Source of the DNA: Arachnia propionica
Lineage (GTDB): Bacteria; Actinomycetota; Actinomycetes; Propionibacteriales; Propionibacteriaceae
Length of the DNA stretch: 64,000 nucleotides
Assembly (NCBI RefSeq): GCF_037055325.1
Contig: NZ_CP146373.1
Span: 2,852,001 to 2,916,000, forward strand
Direction of reading: 5' to 3'
In this document: positions 9,717 through 64,000 of the stretch, one piece after another
How the letters are laid out: every line of letters begins with the position of its first letter
Numbering within the stretch: position 1 is the first letter of the stretch
The notes under the pieces: generated by a model
Databases searched by the model: none
Seen by the model: only the letters and a program-made list of their open reading frames with translations
What the model was told of the DNA's origin: nothing
Translations under genes and position numbers: made by a program

Positions 9717-9768
9717 AGGCTCCCATCCTCCTTCTGAAACGCCCCGCTTTGCACTCCGACTCGTCGCA

Positions 9769-9786
9769 CGATATCGTATTTGATAC
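9769..9786. promoter_or_regulatory. Candidate operator/promoter between the TetR and Rieske genes
   Basis: CGATATCG (9769-9776) is a perfect palindrome and GTAT-TTG-ATAC (9776-9786) is an inverted repeat directly next to it. They lie in the only A/T-rich stretch between the two divergent genes. Role as the regulator's binding site is inferred from position. Confidence 0.4.
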
Positions 9787-9810
9787 ACAATGTCTCATTT
9801 AGGAGTGGGT

Positions 9811-10248: not shown

Positions 10249-10328
10249 GCGCACGCGTCATCGTCGAGCCATAGCCCGACGACACGTCGCACAACACCCA
10301 CGCCACAGGCTGGCCCGCCTCATCTTGA

Positions 10329-10348
10329 ATGAGTGAGTACTCACTCAT
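10329..10348. promoter_or_regulatory. Perfect 20-bp TetR operator
   Basis: ATGAGTGAGTACTCACTCAT is an exact palindrome of 20 bases ending 16 bases before the chosen TetR start. Its placement over the likely promoter of the regulator-exporter operon makes it an autoregulatory operator. The ATG inside it opens the reading frame of the TetR gene but is not the likely start. Confidence 0.85.
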
Positions 10349-10364
10349 ACACTGGTGCGTCGTG

Positions 10365-10952
10365 ATGACCCGTGCCCGACCTCTTCCACCCGCCGAACGA
10401 CGGGCGTCGCTGATTGCCGCGACCCGCCAGTTGATCCTGGACCACGGTCCGGACGTGACCACCCGGCAGGTGGCGGAGGCCGCCAAGGTGGCCGAGGGAA
10501 CCCTGTTCAGGGTGTTCCCGACCCGACGCGACCTCATCGCCGCCACCATCGCCGACCACCTCTCCCCCGAACGGCTCGCCGATATCTTCGCTGCGGCTTC
10601 CCCCACCACGACCGTCGACGAGACCACCGAGGTGTGTCTGTCCACCGCCGCCGACTACGTCACCACCTTCGGGCGTTTCATCCCCCGACCGCACCGGGGC
10701 GGTGACCAGGACGAGATCCGGTTTCGGATCATGGAGCTGTGGGAGGCCCGGGTCTGTGACATCGCAAACTGGATGCGTGATCGCCTGGCCCCGCACGAGA
10801 CCCAGTTGACGATCCCAGTCAAGGACTTCGCCCATCTCGTCATCACCCTGGCCATGGGGTATGCGCACGGCAGATCTCCCGATACCAGCTTGAACCCCGC
10901 CACCCTGGCGCGCCTCGCCCTCGACGGAGCCCGCAGGAAGGATTCCCTGTGA
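10365..10952 (+). CDS. TetR-family repressor of the ABC exporter operon
   Basis: The start MTRARPLPPAER (ATG at 10365, or the GTG just before it) follows the 20-bp palindrome; the ATG at 10329 is part of that palindrome. The 195-residue product has a standard TetR helix-turn-helix: ASLIAATRQLILDHG, TTRQVAEAAKVAEGTLFRVF, then PTRRDLIAATI. The absence of a clear Shine-Dalgarno sequence suggests a leaderless or near-leaderless message. Its stop overlaps the first exporter gene (GTGA), so repressor and pump are co-transcribed. The likely logic is drug- or metabolite-induced relief of repression; the ligand cannot be read from the sequence. Confidence 0.9.
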   Translation: MTRARPLPPAERRASLIAATRQLILDHGPDVTTRQVAEAAKVAEGTLFRVFPTRRDLIAATIADHLSPERLADIFAAASPTTTVDETTEVCLSTAADYVTTFGRFIPRPHRGGDQDEIRFRIMELWEARVCDIANWMRDRLAPHETQLTIPVKDFAHLVITLAMGYAHGRSPDTSLNPATLARLALDGARRKDSL

Positions 10953-12694: not shown

Positions 12695-14685
12695 GCACCA
12701 CCACCGAGAACACCAAGGCCGCCACCAAACCCGCGGCCAACAAACGTCCCGCACACGGCCCGGGGAAGATCAGCTTCGGGCCCGGCGGTCCCAGCGGCTC
12801 CGGGGAAACCGCGGTCGCTTTCCTGCCGTCGCTGAAGCGCCTGCTCGGAATCATGAAACCGCACCGGATCGCGGTGGCGGTCGCGCTGGCGCTGTCCGTC
12901 GGCGCCGTCGTGATGTCCGCCCTCGGCCCGAAGATCCTGGGGGCTGCCACCGACCTGCTGCTGGCCGGGATCGTCGGCAAGAACATGCCCGCAGGCGTCA
13001 CGAAGGAGCAGGCCATCGAGACCGCCCGCAGCGGCGGAAACGACACCCTCGTCGAGATGCTGCAACGCGTCAATTTCACCCCCGGTCAGGGCATCGACTT
13101 CGGTGCCATCGGGTCGATCCTGGCGCTGGTGTTGACGCTCTACATCGTCTCCGCCGTCGCCACCTACGTCTCGAACTGGCTGCTGATCGGCGCGGCCCAG
13201 AAGTCGGTGCGGCGGATGCGCAGCGACGTGGAGGCCAAGCTGCAGCGCCTGCCCCTGTCGTACTTCGACGGGCAGCCGCGCGGCGAGCTGCTCTCCCGCG
13301 TCACCAACGACATCGACAACATCTCCCAAACCCTGATGCAGACCCTGCCGCAGCTCATCAATTCGCTGCTGACGGTGGTCGGGGTGCTGATCATCATGAT
13401 GTGGATTTCGTGGCCACTGGCGCTGGTCACGCTGGTCTCGATCCCGCTGTCGATGCTGATCGTGCCGTTGATCATGCGACGCTCCCAGAGGCGGTTCGCC
13501 GACATGTGGAAGTCCACAGGCGAGCTGAACTCGGAGATCGAGGAGGCCTACACCGGCCATTCCCTGGTGAAGGTGTTCGGTCGCAAGTCAGAGGTGGAGG
13601 CCACCTTCCGCACCCGCAACGAGGAACTGTTCAGGTCGTCGTTCGGGGCGCAGTTCCTCTCCGGGATCCTCATGCCTGTGATGTTCCTGGTCGGCAACCT
13701 CAACTACGTCATCGTCGCGGTCTTCGGTGGTCTCCAGGTGGCGACGGGACAGATGAACATCGGCGACGTGCAGGCTTTCATTCAGTACTCGCGCCAGTTC
13801 ACGCAGCCGCTGACGCAGCTCGCGTCCATGATGAACCTGCTGCAGTCGGGGGTGGCCTCCGCGGAGCGGGTCTTCGAGTTGCTCGACGCCGACGAGATGT
13901 CGCCGGAACCGGGCCGCGACCTGACCGCCGAGGGCGGGCACGTCGTCTTCGAGGACGTCACCTTCTCCTACAGCCCGGATCGTCCCCTCATCGAACACCT
14001 CAACCTGGAGGCGAAGCCGGGCCAGACGGTCGCGATCGTGGGGCCCACCGGCGCGGGCAAGACCACGCTGGTGAACCTGTTGATGCGTTTCTACGACCTG
14101 AACTCCGGTCGCATTCTCCTCGACGGGACGGACATCGCGACGGTGGATCGGGGGGCGTTGCGCGACAACATGGGCATGGTGTTGCAGGACACGTGGCTGT
14201 TCGGCGGCACCATTCGCGACAACATCGCCTACGGCAAGGAGGGCGCCACTGAGGAGGAGATCCTGGCCGCGGCGAAGGCGGCGTTCGTGGATCGTTTCGT
14301 CCATTCCCTGCCCGACGGCTACGACACCGTCATCGACGAGGAGGGCAACAACGTCTCTGCGGGTGAGAAGCAGCTCATCACCATCGCGCGGGCTTTCTTG
14401 TCGGAGCCGGAACTGCTGATCCTCGACGAGGCCACCTCATCGGTCGACACCCGCACCGAACTGCTGCTGCAAAAGGCGATGGCAGCGCTGCGCAGTGGTC
14501 GCACGTCGTTCGTGATCGCCCACCGCCTGTCCACCATTCGTGACGCCGACCTGATCCTCGTCATGAACGACGGCGCCATCGTCGAGCAGGGAACCCACCA
14601 CGATCTGCTCGCAGCGAAAGGTCGCTACCACGAGCTGTACCAGTCGCAGTTCAATGCGCCCGTCGAGGAGGTCCCCGCCCGTTGA
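12691..14685 (+). CDS. ABC exporter half-transporter, catalytic partner
   Basis: The 664-residue protein has an N-terminal extension of about 45 residues rich in Thr, Lys, Pro and Gly, then a six-helix exporter domain with a long first extracellular loop. The ATPase domain follows: Walker A GPTGAGKTT near 450, signature NVSAGEKQLITIARAF, Walker B LLILDEATSSVD with the catalytic Glu, and switch His in VIAHRLSTI. It therefore supplies the Walker B/His side of the active site in the heterodimer with the preceding gene. The ATG overlaps that gene's stop (ATGA). The second of two co-translated subunits, it ends the operon before the convergent tRNA gene. Confidence 0.93.
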   Translation: MSTTTENTKAATKPAANKRPAHGPGKISFGPGGPSGSGETAVAFLPSLKRLLGIMKPHRIAVAVALALSVGAVVMSALGPKILGAATDLLLAGIVGKNMPAGVTKEQAIETARSGGNDTLVEMLQRVNFTPGQGIDFGAIGSILALVLTLYIVSAVATYVSNWLLIGAAQKSVRRMRSDVEAKLQRLPLSYFDGQPRGELLSRVTNDIDNISQTLMQTLPQLINSLLTVVGVLIIMMWISWPLALVTLVSIPLSMLIVPLIMRRSQRRFADMWKSTGELNSEIEEAYTGHSLVKVFGRKSEVEATFRTRNEELFRSSFGAQFLSGILMPVMFLVGNLNYVIVAVFGGLQVATGQMNIGDVQAFIQYSRQFTQPLTQLASMMNLLQSGVASAERVFELLDADEMSPEPGRDLTAEGGHVVFEDVTFSYSPDRPLIEHLNLEAKPGQTVAIVGPTGAGKTTLVNLLMRFYDLNSGRILLDGTDIATVDRGALRDNMGMVLQDTWLFGGTIRDNIAYGKEGATEEEILAAAKAAFVDRFVHSLPDGYDTVIDEEGNNVSAGEKQLITIARAFLSEPELLILDEATSSVDTRTELLLQKAMAALRSGRTSFVIAHRLSTIRDADLILVMNDGAIVEQGTHHDLLAAKGRYHELYQSQFNAPVEEVPAR

Positions 14686-51230: not shown

Positions 51231-51290
51231 TTGGTCAATCGGCCGGAATGGGCAATGATCTTTGAGGTTGCCGCAGGGCCTTTCAACCAA

Positions 51291-52592
51291 CCTGACTTGG
51301 CTCATTTAGTGTCATTCCGGGGTGTTGTGGATGGCGTCAAGCCAGGCTTGGGGGTTGGCGGGGATGGGGTCTTCAGCGGTGACGATGGCGTCACCGGTGT
51401 CGCGCGTCAGACTGTGTGGCAGGGGTAGTTAGTTGCTGATGCAGTGCTCTAGCTGAAAGGTTTGAGTCATCATGAGTCGTCTTGTGACGATTCGTGTGGA
51501 GAAGAAGCTCCGTATCGTGTTGTCCGTGCTGCAAGGTGAGACCTCAATTGAGGCAGTCCGCTGGGAGAAGGTTTCCGAGCAGGCGATCGGGAACTGGAAA
51601 CGGCAGTTCCTTGAAGGTGACAGAGCTGGGATTGAGGCGGGTAGGTTCAAGCCCACGTCTCGGGAGTAGCAGTTGGAGGCTGAGCCGCCGAAGAGACCGT
51701 GGCCCCAACCGGCTCGTATGGCTGCACAGGATCTTGTGGTCGGACATGCAATGTCCCCAAGCCGGCTTGGGGCATCGCACGATCTGGGCGATGCCCCTTC
51801 ACGACGAGGCATAAGGTCTCACAGGCGACTGTGCTGCGGCTACTGCGTGACGAGGACCTCTTGCTGCCCTCGACACGTACACCAAGCAGTGTCGTGAGCT
51901 CGCCAAGGACTGCAAAGCCGGCGTTCGTGAAGATCCCGAACGGCCCCGTACCAGGTGTGGCAACTGGCTCTTGCCTGAGTTCGAGACCACGACTGGTGGG
52001 ACCTGGCGGTTCGCGGGATGCCGGGACTGGTGCTCCAAGCTTGAGTATCGATTGCCATATCTCGTCGGCTGCGAACCAGCATGACGCGATCGCTGCGGTT
52101 GAACTCGGCGGTAGTCGATTACGAGCGTATGTTCGGGCATCCGCTGGCCCGGTACCTGTCCCATCGACGAGAACGCTGGAGAGCCGTTACCCGTGGTTAC
52201 GATCGTGACCGATATTGGTGGCCCGTTTCGGTCGCTGAACTTCGAGCTGTTCATCACCTCTCACCCTGAACTGCGACACGTCCGCACACGGGTGCGGACA
52301 CCACGCCAGAGCGTGTCCCCGGGGACGCGGGTTCGGAACGTTGAAGTACGAACGCCTGAACGTTGAAGTACGAACGCCTGTTCCCAGGCGACATCCCCGA
52401 CGCATTGACGCTGATCGAGCGAGCTGAGGACTACCGCATCGAATACAACACCACGCGCCCTCACGAGGCCATCGCCTGGAGCCGGCCCCTTCGCAATCCA
52501 CCTCGGGCACGCCGACCCCATCACCCCCAACTTCGAACAAGAAGAAAACCCTGCCAACTACTTGACGCAAGACAATATTGAGCCAAGTCAGG
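51291..52592 (+). mobile_element. Decayed insertion sequence with intact terminal inverted repeats (IS3-like)
   Basis: CCTGACTTGGCTCA at 51291-51304 is matched exactly in reverse complement at 52579-52592, defining a 1302-bp element. The interior reads as a transposase with an Asp-rich integrase core on the plus strand, broken by stop codons and frameshifts. If the ends start at TGACTT...AAGTCA the element is 51293-52590. No target duplication is seen. Upstream of the transposase, 51305-51471 also contains the reversed end of another reading frame (minus strand, ending ...WLDAIHNTPE at about 51317), possibly a fragment. Confidence 0.8.
51472..52578 (+). pseudogene. Transposase pseudogene of the IS element
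   Basis: The start MSRLVTIRVEKKLRIVLSVL is a helix-turn-helix transposase N-terminus, ending at an in-frame TAG at 51667. Continued reading in shifting frames gives QLEAEPPK..., VSQATVLRLLRDEDLLLP, EFETTTGGTWRFAGCRDWCSKLE, VVTIVTDIGGPFRSLNFELF (core D-x-G, normally DNGG) and LKYERLFPGDIPDALTLIERAEDYRIEYNTTRPHEA, the C-terminal Glu-bearing part of the integrase domain. At least one stop and several frameshifts make it non-functional. The DDE catalytic order fits IS3-like enzymes; family not certain. Confidence 0.75.
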
Positions 52593-52631
52593 CTCCAACG
52601 ACTCACCTTTGCCTAGATAAGCATCAAGTGT

Positions 52632-52723
52632 CTATGGCACGTACCCCAGAAGTTTCGCGACCACTGTGGCGAAAAACACTGCGAGTGCCGGACATCCCAT
52701 AAGCAACGATACAGCCTTGAGGC
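52632..52723 (-). pseudogene. Possible C-terminal remnant of a membrane protein
   Basis: Minus strand reads ALKAVSLLMGCPALAVFFATVVAKLLGYVP and a stop, with a stop just upstream. It looks like the end of a membrane helix protein whose body is absent, between the IS element and the monooxygenase gene. The remaining bases of the 52593-52798 gap show no further feature. Very short, so low confidence. Confidence 0.25.
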
Positions 52724-52798
52724 TTATTCACAGGAAACGCATCAGCCGAAAAATCCCTAGTCAGAGCGCACTTGGGAAGGGCTGTGAATGACCTTCCA

Positions 52799-54133
52799 TC
52801 ATTTCTGTCTTCCAGCACTTCTTCGATCGGCGTCAAGAATATCGCCAGGAAGAGTCCCCACCCCCATGCCGGCCAAAATCCGATCCGACAGCTCACCCAA
52901 GCAGCTGAGGTTGGCAAACCCCGGCCCCTGACGCAATCCCGAAAGCATGGGTAGGAACAGCTTTGGAACGACCCCTTCGAGTGCCAGATCAGCACCGACC
53001 CGCTCTTCCACTCCCGATAATCTGAGTGTTCCTCCGCAGGCGCCAGCAAGAAGCTCCCGTACGTCATCATCCATGAGCTGCGTGAACCACAGCGGATTAT
53101 TGCCTCGAGCATCAACGACCAGATCGAAACTCTCTTGCCGAGTACCCAACACCGTGTCGCTGATACTGATCACCACAAACTCTCCATTCCCCTCAACAGT
53201 TTCAGCTTTTCCACGCAGGTGCAGAACCCGATCATCGCTCTGGAGAAAATCCTGTACCCGCACAGAAAAAACCCCACGATCCGTGCGAGAAATAACATCG
53301 CGGCGTGCGGCTTCATCAAGCGCGAGCCAACGGGCAGGTTCGCTGTACAAGCGATTTTCGAACTGGCTTTCGCCGCGCGAGAATATGGTTGCTGCCGGAG
53401 AAATTACCTTGATTTCCTTGCACGGGTAGCGTACTAGTTCGTTGACCACACTGGCCGCACTCTCGCCCCCTCCGATTACGGCCACCCGATCCATCTCAGG
53501 CAGGGAACCTTCACCTGCCGCGCGCCAGAAACGCGCCAATGAGTACACCTGAGGCAGATCAGCAATGCAGCGCGAGCTGGTTCCAGGGCCAGTAATCATG
53601 AGCGCTTCAGAAACCACGTCATGAGTTGAACCGTCATTGAGCTGAACCGATAGTGACCAGCATGCGGGCTCCCCACCACACACCGAAATCCTATCAACAC
53701 GCCCTGACAGCAGCTTCAGATCAATTCGCTCCGCCGCCCAATTTAGATATTCGGCCCACAGTCGATGCAGAGGCGAGGGATGCCCACGATCAACCCAGGA
53801 AGTATATCTATTGGTTTCGATGAGGAATTGGATCCAACTGACTTGAAAAAGTTCCCGATCAACCTTCCTGTTGAGGATGCCCAAGGAGGAGCCTGCTTCA
53901 TGCCCAGCTATGCGGGTGTTGTAGGGAAAGCCGATGTCCTTAAGCGGTGAAGTACCCAGCAGGTGGCGGCCATTGGTCCAGCCGCCATCCGAAAGCCAGT
54001 TTCCACCCACACCCAAGGGATCGAGAACAAGGATCTCGGCTTTTGAGATACCCAAGCATCGCAACGCATGCGCCTTGGCTTGAACAGCAATTGCCTTCGG
54101 CCCAGCCCCCAGCACCGTCAAGGACAGCACCAT
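52799..54133 (-). CDS. mbtG: MbtG-like lysine/ornithine N-monooxygenase of siderophore synthesis
   Basis: The start is the ATG at 54133 (MVLSLTVLGAGPKAIAV); the next codon, GTG, has better spacing from AGGGG. The 444-residue flavoprotein matches mycobactin MbtG along its length: VLGAGPKAIAVQAKAHAL (FAD), VGGNWLSDGGWTNGRHLLGTSPLKDIGFPY, YSLARFWRAAGEG, VIGGGESAASVVNELVRYPC (NADPH), and VPKLFLPMLSGLRQGPGFANLSCLG. Enzymes of this group hydroxylate the side-chain amine of lysine or ornithine to make the iron-binding hydroxamate. It is divergent from the NRPS genes, with an iron box between. Confidence 0.92.
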   Translation of the reverse strand: MVLSLTVLGAGPKAIAVQAKAHALRCLGISKAEILVLDPLGVGGNWLSDGGWTNGRHLLGTSPLKDIGFPYNTRIAGHEAGSSLGILNRKVDRELFQVSWIQFLIETNRYTSWVDRGHPSPLHRLWAEYLNWAAERIDLKLLSGRVDRISVCGGEPACWSLSVQLNDGSTHDVVSEALMITGPGTSSRCIADLPQVYSLARFWRAAGEGSLPEMDRVAVIGGGESAASVVNELVRYPCKEIKVISPAATIFSRGESQFENRLYSEPARWLALDEAARRDVISRTDRGVFSVRVQDFLQSDDRVLHLRGKAETVEGNGEFVVISISDTVLGTRQESFDLVVDARGNNPLWFTQLMDDDVRELLAGACGGTLRLSGVEERVGADLALEGVVPKLFLPMLSGLRQGPGFANLSCLGELSDRILAGMGVGTLPGDILDADRRSAGRQK

Positions 54134-54183
54134 CCGCCCCTTTCGCCTGTTTTCAATAATTTTACTTTCAATAAGCTCATGCT

Positions 54184-54231
54184 TTGCACTATGAGATTGT
54201 ATGCATAATATATGAGGCATGCCTACCCTAA
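54184..54231 (+). promoter_or_regulatory. Iron-regulated leaderless promoter of the NRPS operon
   Basis: TTGCAC (54184-54189), a 16-base spacer and TAATAT (54206-54211) form a -35/-10 pair pointing right; the ATG at 54219 lies seven bases after the -10, so the message would be leaderless. TGAGGCATGCCTACCCTAA (54213-54231) is a 19-bp IdeR/DtxR-like site; its reverse complement matches 14 of 19 positions of the consensus as I recall it, and it covers the start point. Iron-bound repressor would thus block transcription. Divergent mbtG is controlled from the same region (direct repeats TTTCAATAA at 54151 and 54166). Confidence 0.65.
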
Positions 54232-55400
54232 ATCTACCGCCGGTTGATCATGGCCCCTTCTTGGCGGTCGCAGTCAGTGACGGTGATGCGGCTTGCGCAT
54301 CCCTGCTGTCGCGCACTGACGCAGGACTCTTCGTCGAGGAGGGGACACAGACCGATACGAGGGAGATCTTGCGCACTGACGCCGTTGGCGTGCCCTCCGA
54401 TGGCTGCGTGGTGCGTCTCAGGCTGTATCGACGCGGAAAATCCGCCTTGATCACGGCATTGGGCAGTGATGCAACAAGCCTCGGCATGCTTTCCCAGGTC
54501 TTGGACCAGGCCCTTGCTGATGCTCCCCTCAAGCTGCCACTGACGACCACTTCGGCGCCTCCTCGGCACTCGGAAATCCAACGCGACCAAGCAGAGGGCA
54601 GCGTTCCTCGCGACACATTTGACATCCTCGTCGCTCTGGGGACCGGAGATCCGTGCGCAGCCCTCGCCCGCATCGTTGCGGCAAGTTTAGGGGCTCCGAC
54701 ACAGAGCACCACCATCTGCGCGGCGCCCCCCAGCGGCTGGCCATGCACCCCGCGATCCATTATGGAGTCAACCGATCAAACAGCAAACGCCATAATCAGT
54801 GTGGCGATAAGCGATTCCCCACCCAATGATCGGTTTCGTCGTGAGCTAGAGCGCCATGCCCCAGATCAACACGGACAGGTGTGTTCTATCACCGCAGTGC
54901 GTAGCAGCTCCAGAGTGCAACTAGTAGTGCGGACCATCACCACCGTAGACCCTGCAGTCGTGCTCCACACTTTGATCTCAGCGATGACGCGTTGGGCATC
55001 CGCACCCGATACACCGGTCCCTGCTGCGGAGGTGGGTGCAGTACTACGTCATCCAGATTCCGGCAGTGATGCCGATGACACGGGCCCCTGTAACGAGCAG
55101 GAGCAGCTCCTCATCGACCAAGTGCGCCTGGTTCTACATCTCCCTGATGACCAGATCACACTGCGCAGCAACTTTTTCGCTCTCGGCGGTGACAGCATGA
55201 GTGCCCTGCAACTGGCCACAGCACTGGGGACCCACGGCTGGCAGGCCGATATCAAGGACGTTTTCCTCAGTCCAGACCTCAGGTCATTGGCAGCCACACT
55301 GGTGCCAGGGCCCACAGGTCGACCCGAGGTGACACCTCTCACAGCGTCCGGACTCGACCAAAAAATTCTGGATCGGCTCTTGGACGAGGACAAAGCATGA
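54219..55400 (+). CDS. Unusual NRPS carrier protein with an unassigned N-terminal region
   Basis: The 393-residue protein has a clear peptidyl carrier domain at about 290-370, with FFALGGDSMSALQLATALG and pantetheine Ser326. The first 290 residues do not match any catalytic NRPS motif I can see: no HHxxxDG, no A-domain FTSGSTG and no ketoreductase glycine loop. They contain regions such as ALGTGDPCAALARIVAASLG and RVQLVVRTITTVDPAVVLHTLISAM that could be a remnant or a divergent condensation-like fold. The C-terminal tail (LDQKILDRLLDEDKA) looks like a docking segment. First gene of the leaderless operon; its stop overlaps the next start. Role unknown; it may carry a chain element between modules. 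Confidence 0.7.
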   Translation: MPTLNLPPVDHGPFLAVAVSDGDAACASLLSRTDAGLFVEEGTQTDTREILRTDAVGVPSDGCVVRLRLYRRGKSALITALGSDATSLGMLSQVLDQALADAPLKLPLTTTSAPPRHSEIQRDQAEGSVPRDTFDILVALGTGDPCAALARIVAASLGAPTQSTTICAAPPSGWPCTPRSIMESTDQTANAIISVAISDSPPNDRFRRELERHAPDQHGQVCSITAVRSSSRVQLVVRTITTVDPAVVLHTLISAMTRWASAPDTPVPAAEVGAVLRHPDSGSDADDTGPCNEQEQLLIDQVRLVLHLPDDQITLRSNFFALGGDSMSALQLATALGTHGWQADIKDVFLSPDLRSLAATLVPGPTGRPEVTPLTASGLDQKILDRLLDEDKA

Positions 55401-58400
55401 CCTCGATTGTCGATGTGGTGGCCCTCTCCCCCACGCAAGCAGGCATGGTCGCCGTCTCTGCATCGCATCCCACCTATGACCCCTATTTGGTAACCATGGC
55501 GTTCGACCTGACAGAGATCACCACAACGCAGGTGCACCGCCTTCGCTCTGCCTTGGAAGGTCTGTGCCAACGTCACGGACATCTCACCGGCCAGATTCGC
55601 AGCGAGGGGCTACCCCATCCGGTACTGCTCATCCGCGACGGCGCCCGCCCACAATGGGAGATGCGTGATCTACGCGCTGAGCCCGATCCCATTGCTGCAG
55701 CGCAGGAACTCCGGGCCACGGAAGGCAATCGACCGCTGTCCTTGTCAACCGGCCCGCTGACCCGGGCGACACTACTCCAGGTAGGTGGAGACAGCGTCAG
55801 AGGACGCTACGTGCTGTTACTCACGATGCACCACGTGATCATCGACGGCTGGTGTATGCCAACCCTGGTCAGTGAACTTGTTTCTCTAATGAGCGAAACC
55901 GGAAATCACCTGGAACCCCCTGTGCCATTGCGAAATTATGCGTCCTGGATCGCCGCCCAGGATCGCGGTGTTTCCGAGGACATCTGGAAAGCAGATCTTG
56001 CCGACGTCCAGGACATGCCCCGGGTCGGACGCGGAAACGCAGCCGAGAAAGCACCACACGTCGGTGAACACCGTCTTGATGATGCGGACACCACTGCCGT
56101 GCGGAATTATGCGCGTGAGCATGGTCTTACCTTGGCCACTCTCGTGCAGTTGGCGTGGGGACGGGTGCTGAGCAGCGCGGTCGGCCAAGATGAGGTCACA
56201 TTCGGCCAGACAAGTTCTGGTAGGCACCCCGACATTTCAGGAGGAGATCACATCATCGGTGGCCTGGTGACCACCACTCCGGTGCATGTTCGGATCGACG
56301 ATCGCAGCCCAGCAGAAGCGGGTGCCGAGTTGCAGGCGAGACTCGCACGGTTGAGGCGACACGACTGGCTCGGCTCCGGAGGGGTCGCACAGGCATCGGG
56401 ATCTGGCGATCGTGAGCTCTTCGACACATTGGTGGTGGTGGAAAACACCCCGACCGGAGATGTGCACCAACCCATAGACCTGGGCGACGATGCAAAAGCT
56501 CGCCTACTGCGCATCGATTCCCCCAGCCATTACCCGGTGACACTGGTCGTCGTCGATGATGGCGAGTTGGTGGTGCGAGCTGAATGTCATGACAGCCACG
56601 CTCTTGGCGTGTGGTCCTTTGCCGACCCACAACAAACCGCACGCCGGACTGCTCGGGCGCTGACGGAACTGGTCACAGCTCATTCGTTGGCCGAGGTGGA
56701 CATCCTCTTGGAGGGTGAATCCGCAACGATACAGGGGGCTATTGCACCGATTAACCTGCCGGAATCCCTGGACTCGGCGCTCCAAGCGGCAGTATCCAGG
56801 GCTCCCCAAGCTCGAGCTCTGTTGGATGAATTCGGCGAAATTAGCTTTGCGGAATGTCACGCTGCTGTGACTGCTCTAGCGGGAACGCTGCACACGGCAG
56901 GAGCGGACACGGGTGAGCCGGTTGCCGTGGCGCTGCCCCGGGACCGGCGAGCCGTAATCGCGCCTTTTGCCATAGCAGCTGCCGGTGGGATCACGGTCCA
57001 TCTGGACCCCACCCAACCCGTGGGACGGATGGCACAGATCATCTCTGATTCGGGAGCATCCTTGGTACTCACTGATTCCACGACGGCGACCGCCCTGGGG
57101 CAGGAGATGTCCCAAGGGATACGCTGCGGCGTTCCTGAGATCCTGGCTCCGGGCCGGGTGACGTGGCACACATTCGGCTACCCACGCCCGGGACAGCTGC
57201 CACCGTTGCCCGATGCTCGTCGACTGGCGTACGTCGTGTTCACCTCTGGCAGCACGGGCCGGGCGAAGGGAGTGGCCGTTTCTCACGAAGCCATCTTGAG
57301 CTACTGGAAGCACCACGACGGCCATGTCCTGCGTCCCACAGAGAAGCTCCTCGGACGTCAGGTGCGGGTGGCTCATGCTTGGTCCACGGGGTTCGACGCC
57401 GCATGGCAGCCCCAAGTTGCTCTGCTCAGTGGACAGTGTGTTGACATCATCAGCGAGGAAACCCGCAACGATCCCGAGAGGTTGGTGCATGCTCTGGCCA
57501 CGCGCTCGATTGACATATTCGATACCACGCCATCGATGCTTCTGCGCCTGCTATCCGCAGGACTGCTTGAGGATGAGCAGCACCGCCTGAGCGTGCTGGC
57601 GCTGGGAGGCGAGGCCATCCCACAGGATCTGTGGAATCGGCTCAGGTCCTTGGGAATAGTTGTATGGAACTGTTACGGCCCCACGGAGGCCACTGTTGAA
57701 TGCTTCATGGCGCGCGTCGATCGTCACGCCCATCCCACCATCGGTTACCCACTCGATGGCATGGGCGCTGCGATACTCGATCATCGCCTGCGCCCCTTGC
57801 CCCCCGGCATGCCGGGCCAATTGACCGTATGGGGAACACAGCTAGCAGAAGGTTATCTTGGACGTCCTGAAGAAACCGCTCAAGCTTTTCAGCAAGCCAT
57901 CGGTGGTCAACGGTGCTACCTGACCGGAGACATGGCACGCCGTAATCCGGATGGCACTGTCATCTTCGATGGTAGACGTGATGAACAGGTAAAAATCAAT
58001 GGTTATCGCGTCGAACCGGAGGAATCTGCAACGATATTGCGTTCCCTGACCGGCGTACATGACGCCTGTGTGGTAGTGGAGGAGGAACACGAAAGACCAT
58101 TTCTCGGTGCACTGGTGGTTACTGATCGCCCAGCGGTCGAGATACGCAGTGAGGCGGCGACCCACCTGCCCCCTTATCTTCTGCCACGAGTGATGGTTCC
58201 CGTCCGCCGCCTTCCTCTGACTCGTAATGGCAAGCTGGACCGAGTAGCAGTCACCCGACTACTGAAAGAAACAAGCCACAGAGAAAGAGAAACCGTTGAT
58301 GGCCCAGGTGAAAGCTCACCTGCGCTGAAAGATCTCTTGGCTGCGGTCTCCCGACTGACCGGTCAAACTCCCGCTCCCTCGTCCCGGTTCGATGAGCTCG

Positions 58401-59782
58401 GAGTCGACAGTATTGGATTGATGGACGTGGTCGCCGCGTTGCGCAATCCTCCTGCTGACGGAACGGCATGGCAGGTCCGGGTACGCGATCTTGTTGAAAG
58501 CTTCAGCCTGGCTGACGCCGCCTTACAGATGCGGCCGTTTGAGGCACCCGATCCCGATAATCCAGCAGCAACACCCCGCTCCTGGCCTCTGGCTCGGCTG
58601 GCCCGGACCTATGTCACAACTTCGGGTTCCTCTCTCGCTACGATCGCCCAGAGCCAGGTAGTCGCCCTTCCCAAGGGGGATGATGCAGAACTGATGCGTA
58701 TCGCCGAAGACTTGCTGAGCTCCCTCGTAGTGGCTCATCCCATTCTTGCAGCCCGTCTCAACGACAACGGAACCATGCTACTCAGCAGCGGTGCCCCACC
58801 CAGCCTTGACATGCACCCGGCAGACCGTGCGCTAGCTGATATCCGCGACTGCCAGCTCGACCTGCTGGATCCTTGGAGAGGTCCTTTGTGCACGGCCAGT
58901 GTGCGCCGCGGGGAGCCCGGTCAATCGCCCTTGCTGCTCATCACGGTACATCACCTGGCGGTGGACGTGGTCTCCTGGCATGTCCTAGGCGATGACATTG
59001 GTCACTTCAGTCAGGGCAAGGCCATCACACCCGAACAGCCTCTGCCCCAGAACAGTGAAGCCGTCACGACCCGCGAGCTGTCCGACCGGATAACCTATGG
59101 ACCCGCGCTGGGGAAACGGCACGCCGACCCCCGTGTCGACCTAGGTTTGACACCCGCACTATGGCGCCGCACTTCAAGGTCAAGTACGGACGCCGTGTTA
59201 AACGCAGCGAGCCATGGAATCAACATGGCCGACCTTCTGGGCATCATCACAGCAGTGACGGATCGTGATATCGCACAGTCATACGGCAACTCGGTTGACA
59301 CTGATCGCGCTTGGTACACCCTTGAAACCCACGGTCGCAAGGGAATGGAGAACACGCGCGCAGTGGGCTGGTTCACCGCCGAGCGGACATATTCGGTGCC
59401 CGTACCGGAGGCCATGCACCGTGACGCGCTGATGTTGTCATTGGTCGAGAAACGCGAGGACAGCTACGCCTTAGCCGTCAGCTGCCTAAATTACCTAGGG
59501 CGAATGGACTTCCCCCGCCAGTCGGAAGGGGCCGCATGGCAATTCCTTCCACCCGATCAGCTCATCTCAGAGCTAGGTTCATCCGGGGTGGGGACGCTCC
59601 CTGCACGGTTCTCAATGATGCTGACAGCCCATGTCGAGGGCGCTGATGAGGGCCCAGTAATCACCATTGCCTTCGCCGGCGCATCAGGCTTGCTGACACA
59701 GGATCAGGTCGAGGAATATGCAACGCGATGGTTGACCAACCTTGAACGATTCGCTACTGAAACTGAGGAGATGAACCGTTGA
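55397..59782 (+). CDS. NRPS module C-A-PCP-E, MbtF-like
   Basis: The ATG overlaps the previous stop (ATGA). The 1461-residue length is close to MbtF of mycobactin synthesis as I recall it. C domain (1-430) with HHVIIDG at 145-151; A domain (about 450-980) with FTSGSTGRAKG near 615, binding-pocket STGFDAAWQPQ, NCYGPTEATVE, LTGDMARR and NGKLDR; carrier (985-1050) with ELGVDSIGLMD and Ser1005. The C-terminal condensation-like domain (about 1060-1461) has HHLAVDVVSW at 1185-1194, RAVGWFTAERTYSVPV and NYLGRMD, the layout of epimerisation domains. The expected Gly in HHxxxDG is Val, so epimerase activity is doubtful. Likely adds hydroxylysine. Confidence 0.88.
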   Translation: MTSIVDVVALSPTQAGMVAVSASHPTYDPYLVTMAFDLTEITTTQVHRLRSALEGLCQRHGHLTGQIRSEGLPHPVLLIRDGARPQWEMRDLRAEPDPIAAAQELRATEGNRPLSLSTGPLTRATLLQVGGDSVRGRYVLLLTMHHVIIDGWCMPTLVSELVSLMSETGNHLEPPVPLRNYASWIAAQDRGVSEDIWKADLADVQDMPRVGRGNAAEKAPHVGEHRLDDADTTAVRNYAREHGLTLATLVQLAWGRVLSSAVGQDEVTFGQTSSGRHPDISGGDHIIGGLVTTTPVHVRIDDRSPAEAGAELQARLARLRRHDWLGSGGVAQASGSGDRELFDTLVVVENTPTGDVHQPIDLGDDAKARLLRIDSPSHYPVTLVVVDDGELVVRAECHDSHALGVWSFADPQQTARRTARALTELVTAHSLAEVDILLEGESATIQGAIAPINLPESLDSALQAAVSRAPQARALLDEFGEISFAECHAAVTALAGTLHTAGADTGEPVAVALPRDRRAVIAPFAIAAAGGITVHLDPTQPVGRMAQIISDSGASLVLTDSTTATALGQEMSQGIRCGVPEILAPGRVTWHTFGYPRPGQLPPLPDARRLAYVVFTSGSTGRAKGVAVSHEAILSYWKHHDGHVLRPTEKLLGRQVRVAHAWSTGFDAAWQPQVALLSGQCVDIISEETRNDPERLVHALATRSIDIFDTTPSMLLRLLSAGLLEDEQHRLSVLALGGEAIPQDLWNRLRSLGIVVWNCYGPTEATVECFMARVDRHAHPTIGYPLDGMGAAILDHRLRPLPPGMPGQLTVWGTQLAEGYLGRPEETAQAFQQAIGGQRCYLTGDMARRNPDGTVIFDGRRDEQVKINGYRVEPEESATILRSLTGVHDACVVVEEEHERPFLGALVVTDRPAVEIRSEAATHLPPYLLPRVMVPVRRLPLTRNGKLDRVAVTRLLKETSHRERETVDGPGESSPALKDLLAAVSRLTGQTPAPSSRFDELGVDSIGLMDVVAALRNPPADGTAWQVRVRDLVESFSLADAALQMRPFEAPDPDNPAATPRSWPLARLARTYVTTSGSSLATIAQSQVVALPKGDDAELMRIAEDLLSSLVVAHPILAARLNDNGTMLLSSGAPPSLDMHPADRALADIRDCQLDLLDPWRGPLCTASVRRGEPGQSPLLLITVHHLAVDVVSWHVLGDDIGHFSQGKAITPEQPLPQNSEAVTTRELSDRITYGPALGKRHADPRVDLGLTPALWRRTSRSSTDAVLNAASHGINMADLLGIITAVTDRDIAQSYGNSVDTDRAWYTLETHGRKGMENTRAVGWFTAERTYSVPVPEAMHRDALMLSLVEKREDSYALAVSCLNYLGRMDFPRQSEGAAWQFLPPDQLISELGSSGVGTLPARFSMMLTAHVEGADEGPVITIAFAGASGLLTQDQVEEYATRWLTNLERFATETEEMNR

Positions 59783-62700
59783 TCGATGCCTCCTGGCTGA
59801 GAGAACAACTCACCAAAGAACTTTCACTGGACCCAATGGAAGCCGCCGTTCTGTCCGAAGAAACGGATCTGATTGGTCTCGGCCTAGACTCCCTACGAGT
59901 TCTAGCAATCAGTGACGCTCTGGCACGCGCCGGGGTTCGAGTGCACTTCTCAGAGCTGATGATAGATCCGACGTTCGGTGGGTGGCTTGCTGTAATCGCC
60001 GAGGCAGAAAACAGCTCCGTGACCGACCTTACTCCACAGATTGATGCTACGCAGGAAGAGTTCCCCCTCGCCACCATGCAGCATGCATATTGGCTGGGTC
60101 GCCGCATGGACCAACCACTCGGAGGCGTTGCAGCACATCTGTATGTCGAGTTCGATGGAACTAGCAACGATCCAGACGCATTCATTGCAGCATTACAGAA
60201 AGCCACCACAGAACTGGTGCACCGCCATCCCATGCTGCACACCGCAGTGCTCGAGACCGGTTTCCAGAAGATTCTTCCCGTCCCTGACACCTCACCACTC
60301 CAAGTACACGACCTGCGCACGCTGAGTAAATCCGACGTGCAGGCACGACTCGATCATTTGCGTGCTCAATACAGCCATCAGATGCTCGATCTGAGCCAAG
60401 GAGAGGTCTGGAAGCCAGTACTGACCGTTCTACCGGATGGACGACACCGTTTCCATCTAGACGTCGACATGGCCGCTGCGGACGCCATGAGCTACAGACG
60501 CCTGACCGAAGACCTCGCAGTACTGACGCACTCGGCCTTGGAACAAACAGCCCCATCCTTGGCGCCCCTACCCGTGACCTACCGCGACTATCTCCTAAGG
60601 CAGCAACAGGCTCTTTCAGCAGCTGACAGCCCCCAAGCGCAACGAGTGGAGCAGGATCGTCAGTGGTGGCAGACACGACTTGCCGACATGCCGAACCCGC
60701 CAAGTCTCCCGTTCATACCTGAGGAGCACCGAGCAGATCCCCACCACAGCATCCGCTTGGCGGCCACCCTATCCTCCGCCGAATATCACTCATTGCAAGA
60801 GCGAGCACACAGCCGTTCCTTGACCCCGGCAATGGTGGTCGCCACGGCTTTCACCCAAGTCCTCGGGCGTTGGGCTGAAAACAATCGGATGCTGCTCAAC
60901 ATGCCGCTGTTTGCACGTGAGCCAGTCCATCCTGAAATCGACTCGGTGGTCGGCGATTTCACCAACTCTGTGATGGTCAGCGTCACAACATCAGCCAACA
61001 GCTTCGTACAAGCTGTTCAGGCCTTGTCCGCCGAGGTCCACACCGCGGCCGCCCATTCATCCTATACCGGTCTACATGTCCTTCGTGACCTGGGACGACA
61101 TCGCGGACATTCCCTCACGGCGAATGTTGTCTATACATCCGGCCTCGATCTGGGCGATCTGTTCTCACCCAAGGTACGGGAACTCTTTGGAACACCGGCC
61201 CATATCATTTCCCAAGGCCCTCAAGTAGACCTTGATGCGCAGGTGGTGGAATTTGACGGTGGCATGTTGCTGAACTGGGATCTTCGGCGAGACGCCCTAC
61301 CTTCTGGTCTCGCCGAAGACATGTTTTCAGTATTCGTGGGCTACCTACGACAACTAGCTTCAGACGACGCGATTTGGGAAAAGTCTTGCACGATTGAGCT
61401 GCCCGAACATCAGCGACGCACACGCATCCAAGCGAACTCCACACAGTGTGACTTGCCTGCCCGCACTTTGCATGACGACATCCTACGGCGGGCTCAACAA
61501 CAGCCCGCTGCACCGGCCTTGCACTGGCAGGATGTTGACGGAGCAGCCAAGGTACTGACCTACGAAGAAATGGTACGTCGGGCGGGCGCCGTAGCTGAAG
61601 CACTACGTTCCAGTGGCGTACACCCAGGAAACACGGTTGCGCTACAACTACCCCGCGGCCCTCAACAGGTAATCAGCATCTTGGGAGTTCTACTGACCGG
61701 GGCCGCTTATCTTCCCGTGGGGATTCAACAGCCCAATAGCCGGCGCGACACAGTACTTGCAGATGGCGCTGTGACGTCACTGTTGACTACCGACGATGTC
61801 TCAGCGATGCTCGCATCCGACCTTCCAACGCTAAGCGGCGTGCTCGCAGCTGCTGTGGAGGTGGCACCTGAGGCCATTGCGTACGTCTTGTTCACCTCCG
61901 GTAGCACTGGACGACCCAAAGGCGTCGAGGTCAGCCACGCCGCCGCTGCAAACACGCTGGATTCACTGACGGCTCGTTTCGGGTTGGCAGCTCGGCCACC
62001 AATTGCGCTGGCGCTGTCTGCCTATGATTTCGATCTGTCCGTGCTCGACATCTTTCTGCCGCTGGGGCTGGGAGGTCGAGTTGTTCTCCTGGAGGAGAAG
62101 CAGGCGCTGGACGCATTGATATGGGCCGAGCTGATCGAGCAATTCCAGGCCGACCTGCTCAACTGCGCACCCGGGCTCGTGGGTATGCTGCATGAAGCAG
62201 CCAAACCGGAACAGCTGGCCTCCTTGCGGCTGCTGCTTACGGGTGGAGATCGTATACCCCCAGCATTGGCTCACGCAATGCGTCACAAGGTTCCCGGGCT
62301 GACCTTCGTCGGTTTGGGCGGAGCAACCGAGGCTGCAATTCACTCAACAACGTTCGTAGTCGATGATTCGTTGCCCAGTGACGCGACGGCGGTACCCTAC
62401 GGCACCCCTCTGAATAACGTCGCAATGCGAGTGGTCAACAAGAACGGACTCGATGCCCCGGACTTCGTCGCGGGAGAACTCTGGATCGGTGGAAACTCCC
62501 TGGCGCGGGGATACCGGGGAGATTCAAGGCGCACCGCAGAGCGTTTCGTCACCGTCGCCGACAAACGCTGGTACCGCACGGGTGATCTCGCCCGTTACCG
62601 CAGTGACGGGATTGTGGAGATCCTGGGACGCATCGACAACCAGGTCAAGGTCCGCGGTTTCCGCGTGGAACCGGGCGAGGTGGAAGCCGCGCTTGAGTCA

Positions 62701-63273
62701 CTGGACGCAGTGGAGGCGGCTGTAGTCGTGGCACACAACGAACGCCTGCTGGCCGCGGTACAGTCAACTCCCACGGCTTCAGAGACCTTCTCAGGTCAAC
62801 ACATCAAGGAGAGTCTAGCCGCCCTTCTGCCTCCACACATGATTCCAGCAGCCATCATTGACGTGGCAAAGATACCGATCACAAACAATGGAAAGAAGGA
62901 TCGCAAACATACGTCACAGCTGATCAAGAAATCCTTGGCGAAGACAGTCAATTCGTCGCCAGCCGAGGTTGACGAACCCCGCGACGCTCTTGAGGCAGCA
63001 CTTAGTTATCTGCTGGGGCAGGTCCTGGGTATTGAAATCAGTTCGGTGACCGCCGACTTCTTCGATCTGGGTGGTGACTCCATCCTGGCCACTAGCTACA
63101 CCGCTCGGGTACGGGAATTCCTGGATGCCGAAACAATGACGGTGGCCGACGTCCTGGAGCATCGCTCTATACGACAGTTGGCTGACCGTTTGAACCACAT
63201 ACATCCCCAAGCTAAAGATCTACAGGCCACTGCCAAGCTTCTGCTCGAGGTGGCCTCGGTGGAGGTACCATGA
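59779..63273 (+). CDS. NRPS module ArCP-Cy-A-PCP, MbtB-like aryl-azoline synthase
   Basis: A TTG start with GAGGAG upstream, overlapping the previous stop (TTGA). 1164 residues: aryl carrier (1-75, LGLDSLRVL, Ser38); cyclisation domain (about 92-545) with the Cy motif D230-M-A-A-A-D235-A-M-S238; A domain (about 555-1055) with FTSGSTGRPKG at 705-715, the pocket region YDFDLSVLDIFLPLG and NGKKDR; then a carrier with FFDLGGDSILA and Ser1101. This is the order of MbtB/PchE-type proteins that join an aryl acid (salicylate or 2,3-dihydroxybenzoate) to Ser, Thr or Cys and close the ring. There is no thioesterase at the end. The next gene overlaps (ATGA). Confidence 0.92.
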   Translation: MIDASWLREQLTKELSLDPMEAAVLSEETDLIGLGLDSLRVLAISDALARAGVRVHFSELMIDPTFGGWLAVIAEAENSSVTDLTPQIDATQEEFPLATMQHAYWLGRRMDQPLGGVAAHLYVEFDGTSNDPDAFIAALQKATTELVHRHPMLHTAVLETGFQKILPVPDTSPLQVHDLRTLSKSDVQARLDHLRAQYSHQMLDLSQGEVWKPVLTVLPDGRHRFHLDVDMAAADAMSYRRLTEDLAVLTHSALEQTAPSLAPLPVTYRDYLLRQQQALSAADSPQAQRVEQDRQWWQTRLADMPNPPSLPFIPEEHRADPHHSIRLAATLSSAEYHSLQERAHSRSLTPAMVVATAFTQVLGRWAENNRMLLNMPLFAREPVHPEIDSVVGDFTNSVMVSVTTSANSFVQAVQALSAEVHTAAAHSSYTGLHVLRDLGRHRGHSLTANVVYTSGLDLGDLFSPKVRELFGTPAHIISQGPQVDLDAQVVEFDGGMLLNWDLRRDALPSGLAEDMFSVFVGYLRQLASDDAIWEKSCTIELPEHQRRTRIQANSTQCDLPARTLHDDILRRAQQQPAAPALHWQDVDGAAKVLTYEEMVRRAGAVAEALRSSGVHPGNTVALQLPRGPQQVISILGVLLTGAAYLPVGIQQPNSRRDTVLADGAVTSLLTTDDVSAMLASDLPTLSGVLAAAVEVAPEAIAYVLFTSGSTGRPKGVEVSHAAAANTLDSLTARFGLAARPPIALALSAYDFDLSVLDIFLPLGLGGRVVLLEEKQALDALIWAELIEQFQADLLNCAPGLVGMLHEAAKPEQLASLRLLLTGGDRIPPALAHAMRHKVPGLTFVGLGGATEAAIHSTTFVVDDSLPSDATAVPYGTPLNNVAMRVVNKNGLDAPDFVAGELWIGGNSLARGYRGDSRRTAERFVTVADKRWYRTGDLARYRSDGIVEILGRIDNQVKVRGFRVEPGEVEAALESLDAVEAAVVVAHNERLLAAVQSTPTASETFSGQHIKESLAALLPPHMIPAAIIDVAKIPITNNGKKDRKHTSQLIKKSLAKTVNSSPAEVDEPRDALEAALSYLLGQVLGIEISSVTADFFDLGGDSILATSYTARVREFLDAETMTVADVLEHRSIRQLADRLNHIHPQAKDLQATAKLLLEVASVEVP

Positions 63274-64000
63274 GATCGCTCGATGAGGTGCGGACCCTGC
63301 TTTCTCAACGGCGAAAAGGCACTACGTCCAGTGCAGCCGACAGCATCCCGGGTCCGCGAGCAATGCACCCACGGCTGAGTTCTGCGCAGCAGGGAATCTG
63401 GCTCCAGCAACAACTCGACCCGGACAGCAGTGTTTACAATCTGTGCTTGAGAATGACCCTGAAAACTGCAGAAGGAGCTGCCCCTGTAAATCAGGAGCGT
63501 CTCATCGATGCCTTTCGCAAACTTGTGCGTCGGCATGAGGTTTTGCGCACAACGTATCACAGCGGTCCGGACGGTGAACCGTGGCAACAGGTGCACGATG
63601 AGCTTGCCCCGGTTGTGCGTCTGCATGCCCCCGGATCTGACCTGATCGAGATCACACGTAGTGCAGCCATCCGTCCATTCGACCTGGCCGTAGACAGCCC
63701 AATTCGACTGGATCTGATGCGTGTGGACCCAAACACGCTTGTGATCATCATGACCTTGCAACACATCATCTGGGATGGCATGACGATGTCTGTTCTGGCG
63801 CGAGATTTGGCTGCGGCCTATACCAGCGGCGAGGAGCTTCCAGAGTTGACCTGGCACGTCGCGGACTTTGCTGCTCAAGAAGCTTCCAGACCCCAGGAGG
63901 CCGAGCGCGTCTATTGGGCGGAAGTGTTTGCTGACGGTATACCCCAACTCACCCTCCCGACGGTCGATGACGCAACCGAAGCAGCAGCCCGCCGTGATCA
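63270..64000 (+). CDS. NRPS condensation domain protein (partial, right edge)
   Basis: The ATG overlaps the previous stop. About 243 codons are visible: MRSLDEVRTLL, a charged linker, then a condensation domain starting RLSSAQQGIWLQQQLDPDSSVYNL, with RRHEVLRTTYH and MTLQHIIWDGMTMSVLARDL. The HHxxxDG active site reads QHIIWDG (164-170): the second His, needed for catalysis, and Asp-Gly are present, but the first His is Gln, an accepted variation. By position it may correspond to MbtE, the first lysine-adding module. The gene continues past base 64000. Confidence 0.9.
   Translation, partial: MRSLDEVRTLLSQRRKGTTSSAADSIPGPRAMHPRLSSAQQGIWLQQQLDPDSSVYNLCLRMTLKTAEGAAPVNQERLIDAFRKLVRRHEVLRTTYHSGPDGEPWQQVHDELAPVVRLHAPGSDLIEITRSAAIRPFDLAVDSPIRLDLMRVDPNTLVIIMTLQHIIWDGMTMSVLARDLAAAYTSGEELPELTWHVADFAAQEASRPQEAERVYWAEVFADGIPQLTLPTVDDATEAAARRD

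Follow-up and report, generated by a model that had tools for sequence, protein, structure and literature searches.

A nocobactin-like gene cluster in Arachnia

The window (the whole 64,000-nucleotide stretch of DNA analysed) contains the left part of a cluster of 13 genes and 29 kb that runs beyond the window edge at 64000 and probably encodes a complete siderophore pathway of nocobactin-like type whose aryl cap would be imported; the product and the reaction order are what we infer from the genes. A siderophore role for the cluster is well supported, and it resembles nocobactin clusters more than mycobactin ones. The host, taken for a propionibacterium in a first-pass annotation, is indeed of the genus Arachnia, so that the cluster would place the mycobactin/nocobactin class in a Propionibacteriaceae genus of the human mouth.

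The genes encode, in order, an NbtG-like hydroxylase, a protein named here X, C-A-T-E, ArCP-Cy-A-T and C-A-T-E-C synthetases, a thioesterase, a KS, an AT-KR-T protein, an aryl-AMP ligase, an IrtA-like protein, an ABC transporter, an acyltransferase and a second thioesterase (Table 1). All 13 frames are open, and neighbouring genes overlap or are spaced by 31 bases or less. When the sequence beyond 64000 was examined, the ligase and further modules were present, and the C-containing NRPS cut by the window end was completed as the C-A-T-E-C synthetase. Of the parts that the first-pass annotation had expected to the right, a thioesterase, PKS parts and an aryl-AMP ligase were found, whereas no salicylate synthase passed the cut-off in the genome.

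Table 1. Features of the cluster and its right flank. Window-equivalent positions (w.e.), used for genes beyond the window, are the L005 coordinate plus 63000.
Feature	Position	Strand	Support
NbtG/MbtG-like L-lysine N6-hydroxylase	52799..54220	-	PF13434 1.8e-12; PDB 4d7e 1.4e-131
X, C-T didomain with shrunken C domain, 393 aa	54219..55400	+	Pfam PP-binding 3.7e-11
Carrier (T) domain of X, motif LGGDSM	55107..55301	+	Pfam, residues 297-361
NbtE/MbtF-like C-A-T-E synthetase, 1461 aa, code DAQDAGCVE, putative terminal lysine module	55397..59782	+	Pfam C, A, AMP-C, PCP; E motif
NbtF/MbtB-like ArCP-Cy-A-T synthetase, 1164 aa, code DLLNLGLIH, without fused thioesterase	59779..63273	+	Pfam, translation
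C-A-T-E-C synthetase, 1976 aa	63270..69200 (L005:270-6200; in window to 64000)	+	Pfam: 3 Condensation stretches, A, PCP
Thioesterase (TE)	69122-69997 (w.e.)		Domain search beyond window
KS	69988-71334 (w.e.)		Domain search beyond window
AT-KR-T	71327-74314 (w.e.)		Domains AT, KR, T
Aryl-AMP ligase	74317-75930 (w.e.)		Domain search beyond window
IrtA-like SIP-ABC transporter	75962-78505 (w.e.)		IrtA match 1.3e-217
ABC transporter, partner of the IrtA-like protein	78505-80208 (w.e.)
Acyltransferase, PF13523	80178-80855 (w.e.)
Second thioesterase (TE2)	80852-81592 (w.e.)
MFS permease gene, right flank of cluster	81862-83178 (w.e.)	-

A scan of the window for IdeR-type boxes, with up to 3 mismatches allowed, gave 0 matches, and one ORF on the left side of the cluster, when scanned with Pfam, yielded nothing informative. 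Truncated genes were observed on the right flank.

The whole set of 13 genes recurs in collinear order in A. propionica, a second Arachnia species, with identities of 47-77%, and chance is therefore excluded. X and the PKS were found in 2 of 198 genomes of the family. The core order X-NbtE-NbtF-CATEC-TE-KS-NbtC-NbtT is common to A. propionica and a Corynebacterium (C. halotolerans, 307_CHAL record), which ties the Arachnia cluster to the Corynebacterium one; the latter differs in having its own isochorismate synthase genes, a ligase pocket of Asn/Ala/Leu and NbtG on the other strand, and IrtB was not found in the Corynebacterium stretches examined. As this order is shared, a 'rearranged mycobactin' cluster as an isolated oddity was ruled out. 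It is also very improbable that the cluster is decaying and without product: X is far shorter than its Nocardia relative, a starter synthase was not recognised in the genome and there are truncated genes to the right, but the 13 frames are open and tightly packed, the short X is shared by A. propionica and by two clusters from databases, and every gene has been kept in A. propionica at the identities given above.

Relationship to nocobactin and mycobactin systems

The AT-KR-T protein scored 635 bits with the NbtC model and 489 bits with the MbtD model of NCBIfam, both below the curated 1150, NbtC being the best model. Of the nocobactin-type parts, T-Cy-A-T, C-A-T-E, KS, N-hydroxylase, aryl-AMP ligase and N-acyltransferase were present (Cy and E signatures by eye). 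Regarding the features of mycobactin type, MbtD was below its cut-off, the thioesterase is separate and not fused to MbtB, and no MbtI-type match exceeded the cut-off.

In the accessible part of a study of Nocardia (PMC7413640), nocobactin subfamilies II, VI, VIII and IX have a discrete C-T protein together with a C-A-T-E-C protein. The likeness extends to T-Cy-A-T, C-A-T-E, KS and AT-KR-T proteins and, in the same account, to an N-hydroxylase, an N-acyltransferase or formyltransferase and transporters in the operon. By comparison, Arachnia has an X with a reduced C domain, no recognised NbtS-like salicylate synthase and a ligase pocket of Asn/Ser/Cys, and its PKS is 33-35% identical to Nocardia NbtC proteins, among the matches listed. 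With the mbt system it shares the same logic, an IrtA homologue and a lysine-module code identical in the Mycobacterium homologue, whereas it differs in the separate thioesterase, the NbtC-like PKS, another central-module code and the lack of a recognised MbtI. The proposal of a mycobactin cluster with rearranged order is correct in part, in view of the higher NbtC score, the Nocardia precedent and the recurring order. No identical cluster was found described in the accessible text of the literature searched.

Mycobactin-type chemistry, with a long acyl chain on hydroxylysine and a PKS yielding a short hydroxy acid alone, appears improbable: a PF13523 acyltransferase is in the cluster and a mycobactin-type molecule has been found in Nocardia, in a strain whose genes are of nocobactin type (PMC7413640, accessible part), but the NbtC model gives the PKS a higher score than MbtD does, and both the TE-KS-AT/KR run and the C-T protein are nocobactin-like.

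Hydroxylase, X and synthetases

The MbtG-like hydroxylase of the first-pass annotation was confirmed by PF13434 (Lys/Orn N-monooxygenase) and by its sole PDB sequence match, the 'L-Lys monooxygenase' 4d7e, over residues 33-450, while the NCBIfam models named no family for it. As homology starts at residue ~30-33, the true start may be near 54133.

In X we see the C-T protein of certain Nocardia clusters, but with a shrunken C domain. Nocardia sp. 2YAB30 has a C-T protein of 564 aa with which X shares 29% identity, and a sequence search found no HHxxxDG motif in it. Its structural model had a pLDDT of 63.7 and a pTM of 0.37, and the listed fold matches were mostly C/E-type domains (TM 0.20-0.27 to the query); given the low confidence of the model, these matches count merely as agreement with homology. 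Compared with NbtD, in its C-A-T-C-T or split form, X and the C-A-T-E-C protein are both present, but the C domain of X is reduced and lacks HHxxxDG. X would act as a pure carrier.

The C-A-PCP-E protein of MbtF length was borne out by Pfam (C-A-PCP, with one Condensation stretch in the whole protein) and by an E-type motif, HHLAVDVVSW, in its C-terminal stretch. A-domain codes were taken as nine residues from the alignment; that of this protein is matched at all nine by its homologues from Corynebacterium, Mycobacterium and Antrihabitans, and the lysine-module code was identical in 5 of 5 aligned NbtE/MbtF homologues. For the protein described as MbtB-like, the ArCP-Cy-A-PCP reading stood (two PP-binding stretches, Condensation and A domains by Pfam; the Cy-type signature DMAAADAMS by eye in the translation), with the correction that no thioesterase is fused to it. 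Of 8 positions compared in its Cy-module code, 6 agree with published Cys codes.

Proposed pathway

The aryl-AMP ligase would load 2,3-dihydroxybenzoate (DHB) or salicylate onto the ArCP of the ArCP-Cy-A-T protein, which would add and cyclise Thr/Ser, or possibly Cys, into an aryl-oxazoline or else a thiazoline. Next, the C-A-T-E-C protein would add a lysine-type residue, turned by NbtG and the PF13523 acyltransferase into an acylated N-hydroxylysine. A 3-hydroxy fatty acid, predicted to arise from the KS and AT-KR-T proteins, would be ester-joined through the terminal C domain of C-A-T-E-C with X as carrier, and the C-A-T-E protein would supply the last lysine, with release as an N-hydroxy-caprolactam. 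The IrtA-like SIP-ABC transporter and its ABC partner would import the iron complex. The aryl acid itself would enter from outside, plausibly via the flanking MFS permease.

Source of the aryl acid

The ligase pocket is Asn/Ser/Cys, combining a DHB-type serine with an unusual cysteine. In the one-contig genome, no TIGR03494 match (salicylate synthase of NbtS/MbtI type) exceeded 325 bits; the two matches below the cut-off were TrpE and a menaquinone-type isochorismate synthase. A candidate salicylate synthase at C1:344610 was ruled out, as it passes the TrpE model and adjoins TrpC. Antrihabitans served as positive control for the starter-synthase searches (502 bits). Dedicated DHB genes were not recognised in the contig either, the best DhbA score in this genome being 122.9 bits against a cut-off of 300. 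Salicylate is not established as the phenolate, since no synthase passed the cut-off and the serine in the ligase pocket is of DHB type. The mixed phenolate/hydroxamate siderophore first predicted is supported as an aryl-cap/hydroxamate cluster.

The family searches of the genome recognised no dedicated aryl-acid synthase, although an isochorismate synthase is present, which makes the surroundings the most likely source of the aryl acid. Synthesis within the cell, by an unrecognised enzyme turning menaquinone-type isochorismate into salicylate or DHB, with the MFS protein as exporter or unrelated, seems less likely. The isochorismate synthase passes TIGR00543 (245 bits against 224.75), the genome has three PF00857 proteins and one CM_2 protein, and the Corynebacterium cluster has its own isochorismate synthase. 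However, the Arachnia synthase adjoins a MenJ-like reductase gene, two of the PF00857 proteins are hydrolase/nicotinamidase-like and the third was read by eye alone, no DhbA exceeds its cut-off and none of the candidate genes lies in the cluster.

A precedent for uptake is equibactin of Streptococcus equi, for which, in the accessible part of the report (PMC3672683), salicylate must be supplied in defined medium, no salicylate synthase was found in the genome and an aryl-AMP ligase is retained. It differs in its yersiniabactin-like thiazoline assembly line and Cys-type (salicylate) ligase, and salicylate dependence is shown for equibactin, while dependence on an aryl acid is proposed for Arachnia. 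The C. kroppenstedtii ligase is 69% identical to that of Arachnia, with the same pocket, and a subspecies of C. kroppenstedtii is reported to carry DHB genes (PMC13244258, accessible part). Corynekropbactin glycolipids were considered as product of the related Corynebacterium cluster and rejected, their structure being glycolipid and their biosynthetic genes yet unfound according to the accessible text (PMC11491465).

The flanking MFS permease

The MFS permease is plausibly the importer, a substrate and direction that we infer. Among 18 families its best match was that of aromatic acid/H+ symporters (TIGR00895), at 173.8 bits, far under the curated 418.55, and a PDB sequence search gave general MFS matches alone, which were weak. 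In A. propionica, nbtG, a PPTase gene and the MFS gene are packed on one strand, the MFS gene overlapping the PPTase gene beside nbtG; in this genome it is convergent with the nbt run and 93% identical to that of a genome (G023) without nbt PKS or X, and may be the leftover of another cluster.

Uptake can tentatively be extended to an obligately scavenged cap that is 2,3-dihydroxybenzoyl and not salicyl, making the oral Arachnia product a catecholate nocobactin, with a permease travelling with aryl-AMP ligases in Propionibacteriaceae. If so, the pathway would have a borrowed iron-binding head group, and siderophore output would be tied to aryl acids from neighbours or host, possibly breakdown products of others' catecholate siderophores. 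The pairing of MFS and ligase would also mark other siderophore systems that import their aryl acid.

From 34 genomes with a match, 12 MFS loci were compared. An aryl-AMP ligase lies beside the MFS homologue at 4 of the 11 other loci, in addition to the nbt arrangement of A. propionica, and neither ligase nor nbt gene lies within about 1.5 kb at 6 of the 11. One genome (G118) carries a 93-residue MFS piece (61%).

Gene content and order of the cluster

The genes of the cluster are listed below, with coordinates beyond 64000 continuing the numbering of the window; adjacent frames overlap or lie at most 31 bases apart. The first-pass annotation had suggested that the missing mycobactin parts may lie to the right of the window, and the thioesterase, the polyketide synthase (PKS) parts and the aryl-AMP ligase were found there, whereas no salicylate synthase scored over the cut-off in the genome (G000), a single contig of 3,307,556 bases rated 100% complete, of which the window covers C1:2852001-2916000. 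The SIP-ABC protein matched the sequence of the solved mycobactin importer IrtA at 1.3e-217, and the second ABC protein is IrtB-like by position only.

Features of the Arachnia cluster and of its counterpart in A. propionica G025
Feature	Position	Strand	Basis or remark
NbtG-like hydroxylase	52799-54220	-	homology
X (393-aa C-T protein)	54219-55400	+	carrier domain recognised
C-A-T-E synthetase	55397-59782	+	domains
ArCP-Cy-A-T synthetase	59779-63273	+	domains
C-A-T-E-C synthetase (CATEC)	63270-69200	+	domains; crosses window end
Then rightward: thioesterase, KS, AT-KR-T, aryl-AMP ligase (NbtT), SIP-ABC	right of CATEC	+	domains
Then second ABC protein, PF13523 acyltransferase, second thioesterase	last ends 81592	+	domains
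MFS permease	81862-83178	-	convergent with the cluster
nbtG, A. propionica G025 (L021)	9991-11349	-	
PPTase, A. propionica G025 (L021)	9283-9987	-	
MFS, A. propionica G025 (L021)	8043-9299	-	

The gene order, earlier regarded as a rearranged oddity, does not stand alone. All 13 genes are collinear in the same-genus A. propionica genome G025 (cluster on a 66,360-base contig), at 47-77% identity, and a Corynebacterium record (G198; loci L064, L120 and L121) keeps the order X-NbtE-NbtF-CATEC-TE-KS-NbtC-NbtT; therefore, the order is that of a conserved subtype. The Corynebacterium cluster differs in that NbtG, at the left, is on the same strand as the other genes there and the acyltransferase, at the right, on the opposite one, and within the stretches covered neither IrtB nor TE2 was matched separately. 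Within the genus Corynebacterium, a PKS match at E<=1e-60 was detected in 5 of 242 genomes, three of them at 40% identity, and the nearest named PKS and ligase belong to C. kroppenstedtii (43% and 69% identity, respectively).

The G+C content is 58.8% in 52799-64000 vs. 65.9% in the remaining window, and the same 2 of 198 family genomes, the present one included, contained matches to X (E<=1e-10) and to the PKS (E<=1e-60). This low G+C and restricted distribution suggest that the cluster may have been gained horizontally.

Probable assignment to the nocobactin type

The cluster is very probably a nocobactin-like siderophore cluster. According to PMC7413640, nocobactin biosynthesis employs NbtF (T-Cy-A-T), NbtD (C-A-T-C-T), NbtB (KS), NbtC (AT-KR-T), NbtE (C-A-T-E) and NbtG plus an N-acyltransferase; in some Nocardia subfamilies the C-T part is a discrete protein, and a C-A-T-E-C protein is present. 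The Arachnia gene set matches this latter version, except for the reduced C domain of X. With NCBIfam models, the PKS scored higher as NbtC (635 bits) than as MbtD (489 bits), both under the curated cut-off of 1150.

Aligning 15 A domains gave their nine-residue codes. The C-A-T-E code, DAQDAGCVE, did not vary among the five NbtE/MbtF-type domains of the alignment (two from Arachnia and one each from Corynebacterium, Mycobacterium and Antrihabitans), and the C-A-T-E-C code, DVASLGLMD, was unlike the mycobacterial one and allowed no substrate assignment. The code of the Cy module, DLLNLGLIH, ends in the same four residues as that of a Mycobacterium MbtB homologue and resembles the threonine code. 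It also equals the PchE cysteine code at six of eight positions in the table of PMC3672683. As the code fits both Thr-like and Cys-like codes, both an oxazoline and a thiazoline ring are possible.

C-A-T-E keeps an intact HHxxxDG motif in its first domain, and C-A-T-E-C keeps one (HHLITDG) in its last domain, which would be the ester-forming domain. Elsewhere in C-A-T-E-C, the sequence reads QHIIWDG in the first C domain and SHLVVDA in the E domain.

Four relatives of X were found in a large database: two short ones (393 and 395 aa), one of 278 aa and one of 564 aa, the last being a condensation-domain protein of Nocardia sp. 2YAB30. In the alignment, blocks of the C domain were entirely absent from the Arachnia-type proteins, and the carrier was the sole domain recognised by Pfam in the Corynebacterium protein. 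The AlphaFold model of X was of low confidence, and nearly all of its 50 listed Foldseek matches were C, E, Cy, X or related acyltransferase domains, either free-standing or as part of synthetases. Thus, X is a C-T didomain whose reduction has brought it closer to a carrier, and its LGGDSM motif suggests that it may still carry a substrate. Searches of the open-access literature found no description of the Arachnia cluster.

Origin of the starter acid

The salicylate synthase model TIGR03494 (cut-off 325) gave two sub-threshold matches in the genome, of 191.8 and 88.8 bits. One is TrpE, adjoining TrpC, and was rejected; the other is an isochorismate synthase (passing TIGR00543) adjoining a MenJ-like reductase gene. 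Four further genomes that carry such a cluster were searched: Antrihabitans scored 502 bits, and none of A. propionica, Corynebacterium G198 and a draft Mycobacterium passed the cut-off. As the draft, Mycobacterium sp. ACS4331 (G200, locus L025), carries mbt-like genes and scored 174.9 bits at best, the lack of a match in such a draft may say little; there it may reflect an incomplete assembly. For 2,3-dihydroxybenzoate (DHB) synthesis, the DhbA model TIGR04316 reached 122.9 of 300 bits at best. The genome encodes one CM_2 protein and three PF00857 proteins, two of which were hydrolase- or nicotinamidase-like and below cut-offs when scanned with profiles, the third being judged by eye.

Two isochorismate synthases lie near the Corynebacterium cluster (L121:4733-5848 and 13129-14286), one adjoining the acyltransferase gene. 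According to PMC13244258, a C. kroppenstedtii subspecies carries mbtG, an NRPS cluster and genes for DHB biosynthesis, with no known siderophore pathway. Experimental precedent for starter dependence comes from equibactin of S. equi: according to PMC3672683, the species lacks a homologue of salicylate synthase, and in defined medium it had to be supplied with salicylate to make equibactin. We consider the chances roughly even that the Arachnia aryl cap comes from outside the cell, and its identity as DHB is less sure still.

The pocket of the ligase bears on the acid used. According to PMC3672683 and PMC12005286, Ser marks DHB-activating and Cys salicylate-activating enzymes at one position, and Val is set against Leu/Ile at another; the Arachnia ligase has Ser and Cys, respectively. 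Among 121 sequences (the query and the 120 best of 7998 matches), 109 had Asn/Ser/Val, seven Asn/Ser/Cys, three Asn/Ala/Leu and two Asn/Cys/Leu, and the seven comprised, among the matches listed, the query, an identical record, three at 77-88%, C. kroppenstedtii and one at 61%. As the Ser enzyme BasE also accepts salicylate, about threefold less efficiently than DHB (PMC12005286), either acid may be the substrate.

The MFS permease beside the cluster

The best NCBIfam family of the permease was that of aromatic acid/H+ symporters, at 173.8 bits, below the cut-off of 418.55. Its counterpart in A. propionica G025 (60% identity) lies at the opposite cluster end, where nbtG and a PPTase gene are 3 bases apart and PPTase and MFS overlap by 17 bases, an arrangement that strengthens the link with the cluster. 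In the present genome the link is weakened, because MFS and PPTase have homologues at 93% and 83% in the family genome G023, and the stretch separating the two genes corresponds to that region of G023 in shortened form; the permease may thus stem from a lost neighbour cluster.

Homologues at E<=1e-15 occur in 34 of 198 family genomes, and near-full-length ones at >=50% identity in five (the present one, G023, G025, G117 and G042), G118 having a 93-residue piece at 61%. In G023 and G117, where the cluster is of a different type, the MFS gene stands next to one gene that combines a carrier (by eye) with an aryl-AMP ligase and to a further ligase gene, and no ligase matched on the 3.5 kb MFS contig of G042. 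Within about 1.5 kb of 11 other MFS loci, a ligase was found in four (G023, G117 and two distant homologues), the A. propionica arrangement in one and neither in six.

Other loci

Loci L141 (G023:C1:2998001-3018000) and L142 (G117:C37) carry the MFS, the carrier-plus-aryl-AMP ligase, a second aryl-AMP ligase, ECF-type transporter genes (by eye) and an IrtA-like ABC pair; that of G023, possibly equibactin/yersiniabactin-like, further contains an NRPS resembling NbtF and a saccharopine-dehydrogenase-like gene. Right of the Arachnia MFS, at 83319-84430, truncated CbiQ-like and ABC ATPase genes are shortened compared to G023. A second MFS copy of the present genome (L144, G000:C1:660001-672000) is broken in two pieces beside an NbtT-like ligase fragment.

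No gene was recognised in the roughly 1.6 kb (51231-52798) that separate nbtG from a deoC-like gene (by eye), and one ORF therein matched no family in a Pfam scan. A second large NRPS locus (L013/L014, G000:C1:2450001-2473000), with frames of 4170 and >2600 aa, contains the only PF03621 MbtH match of the genome, at 2472394-2472543.
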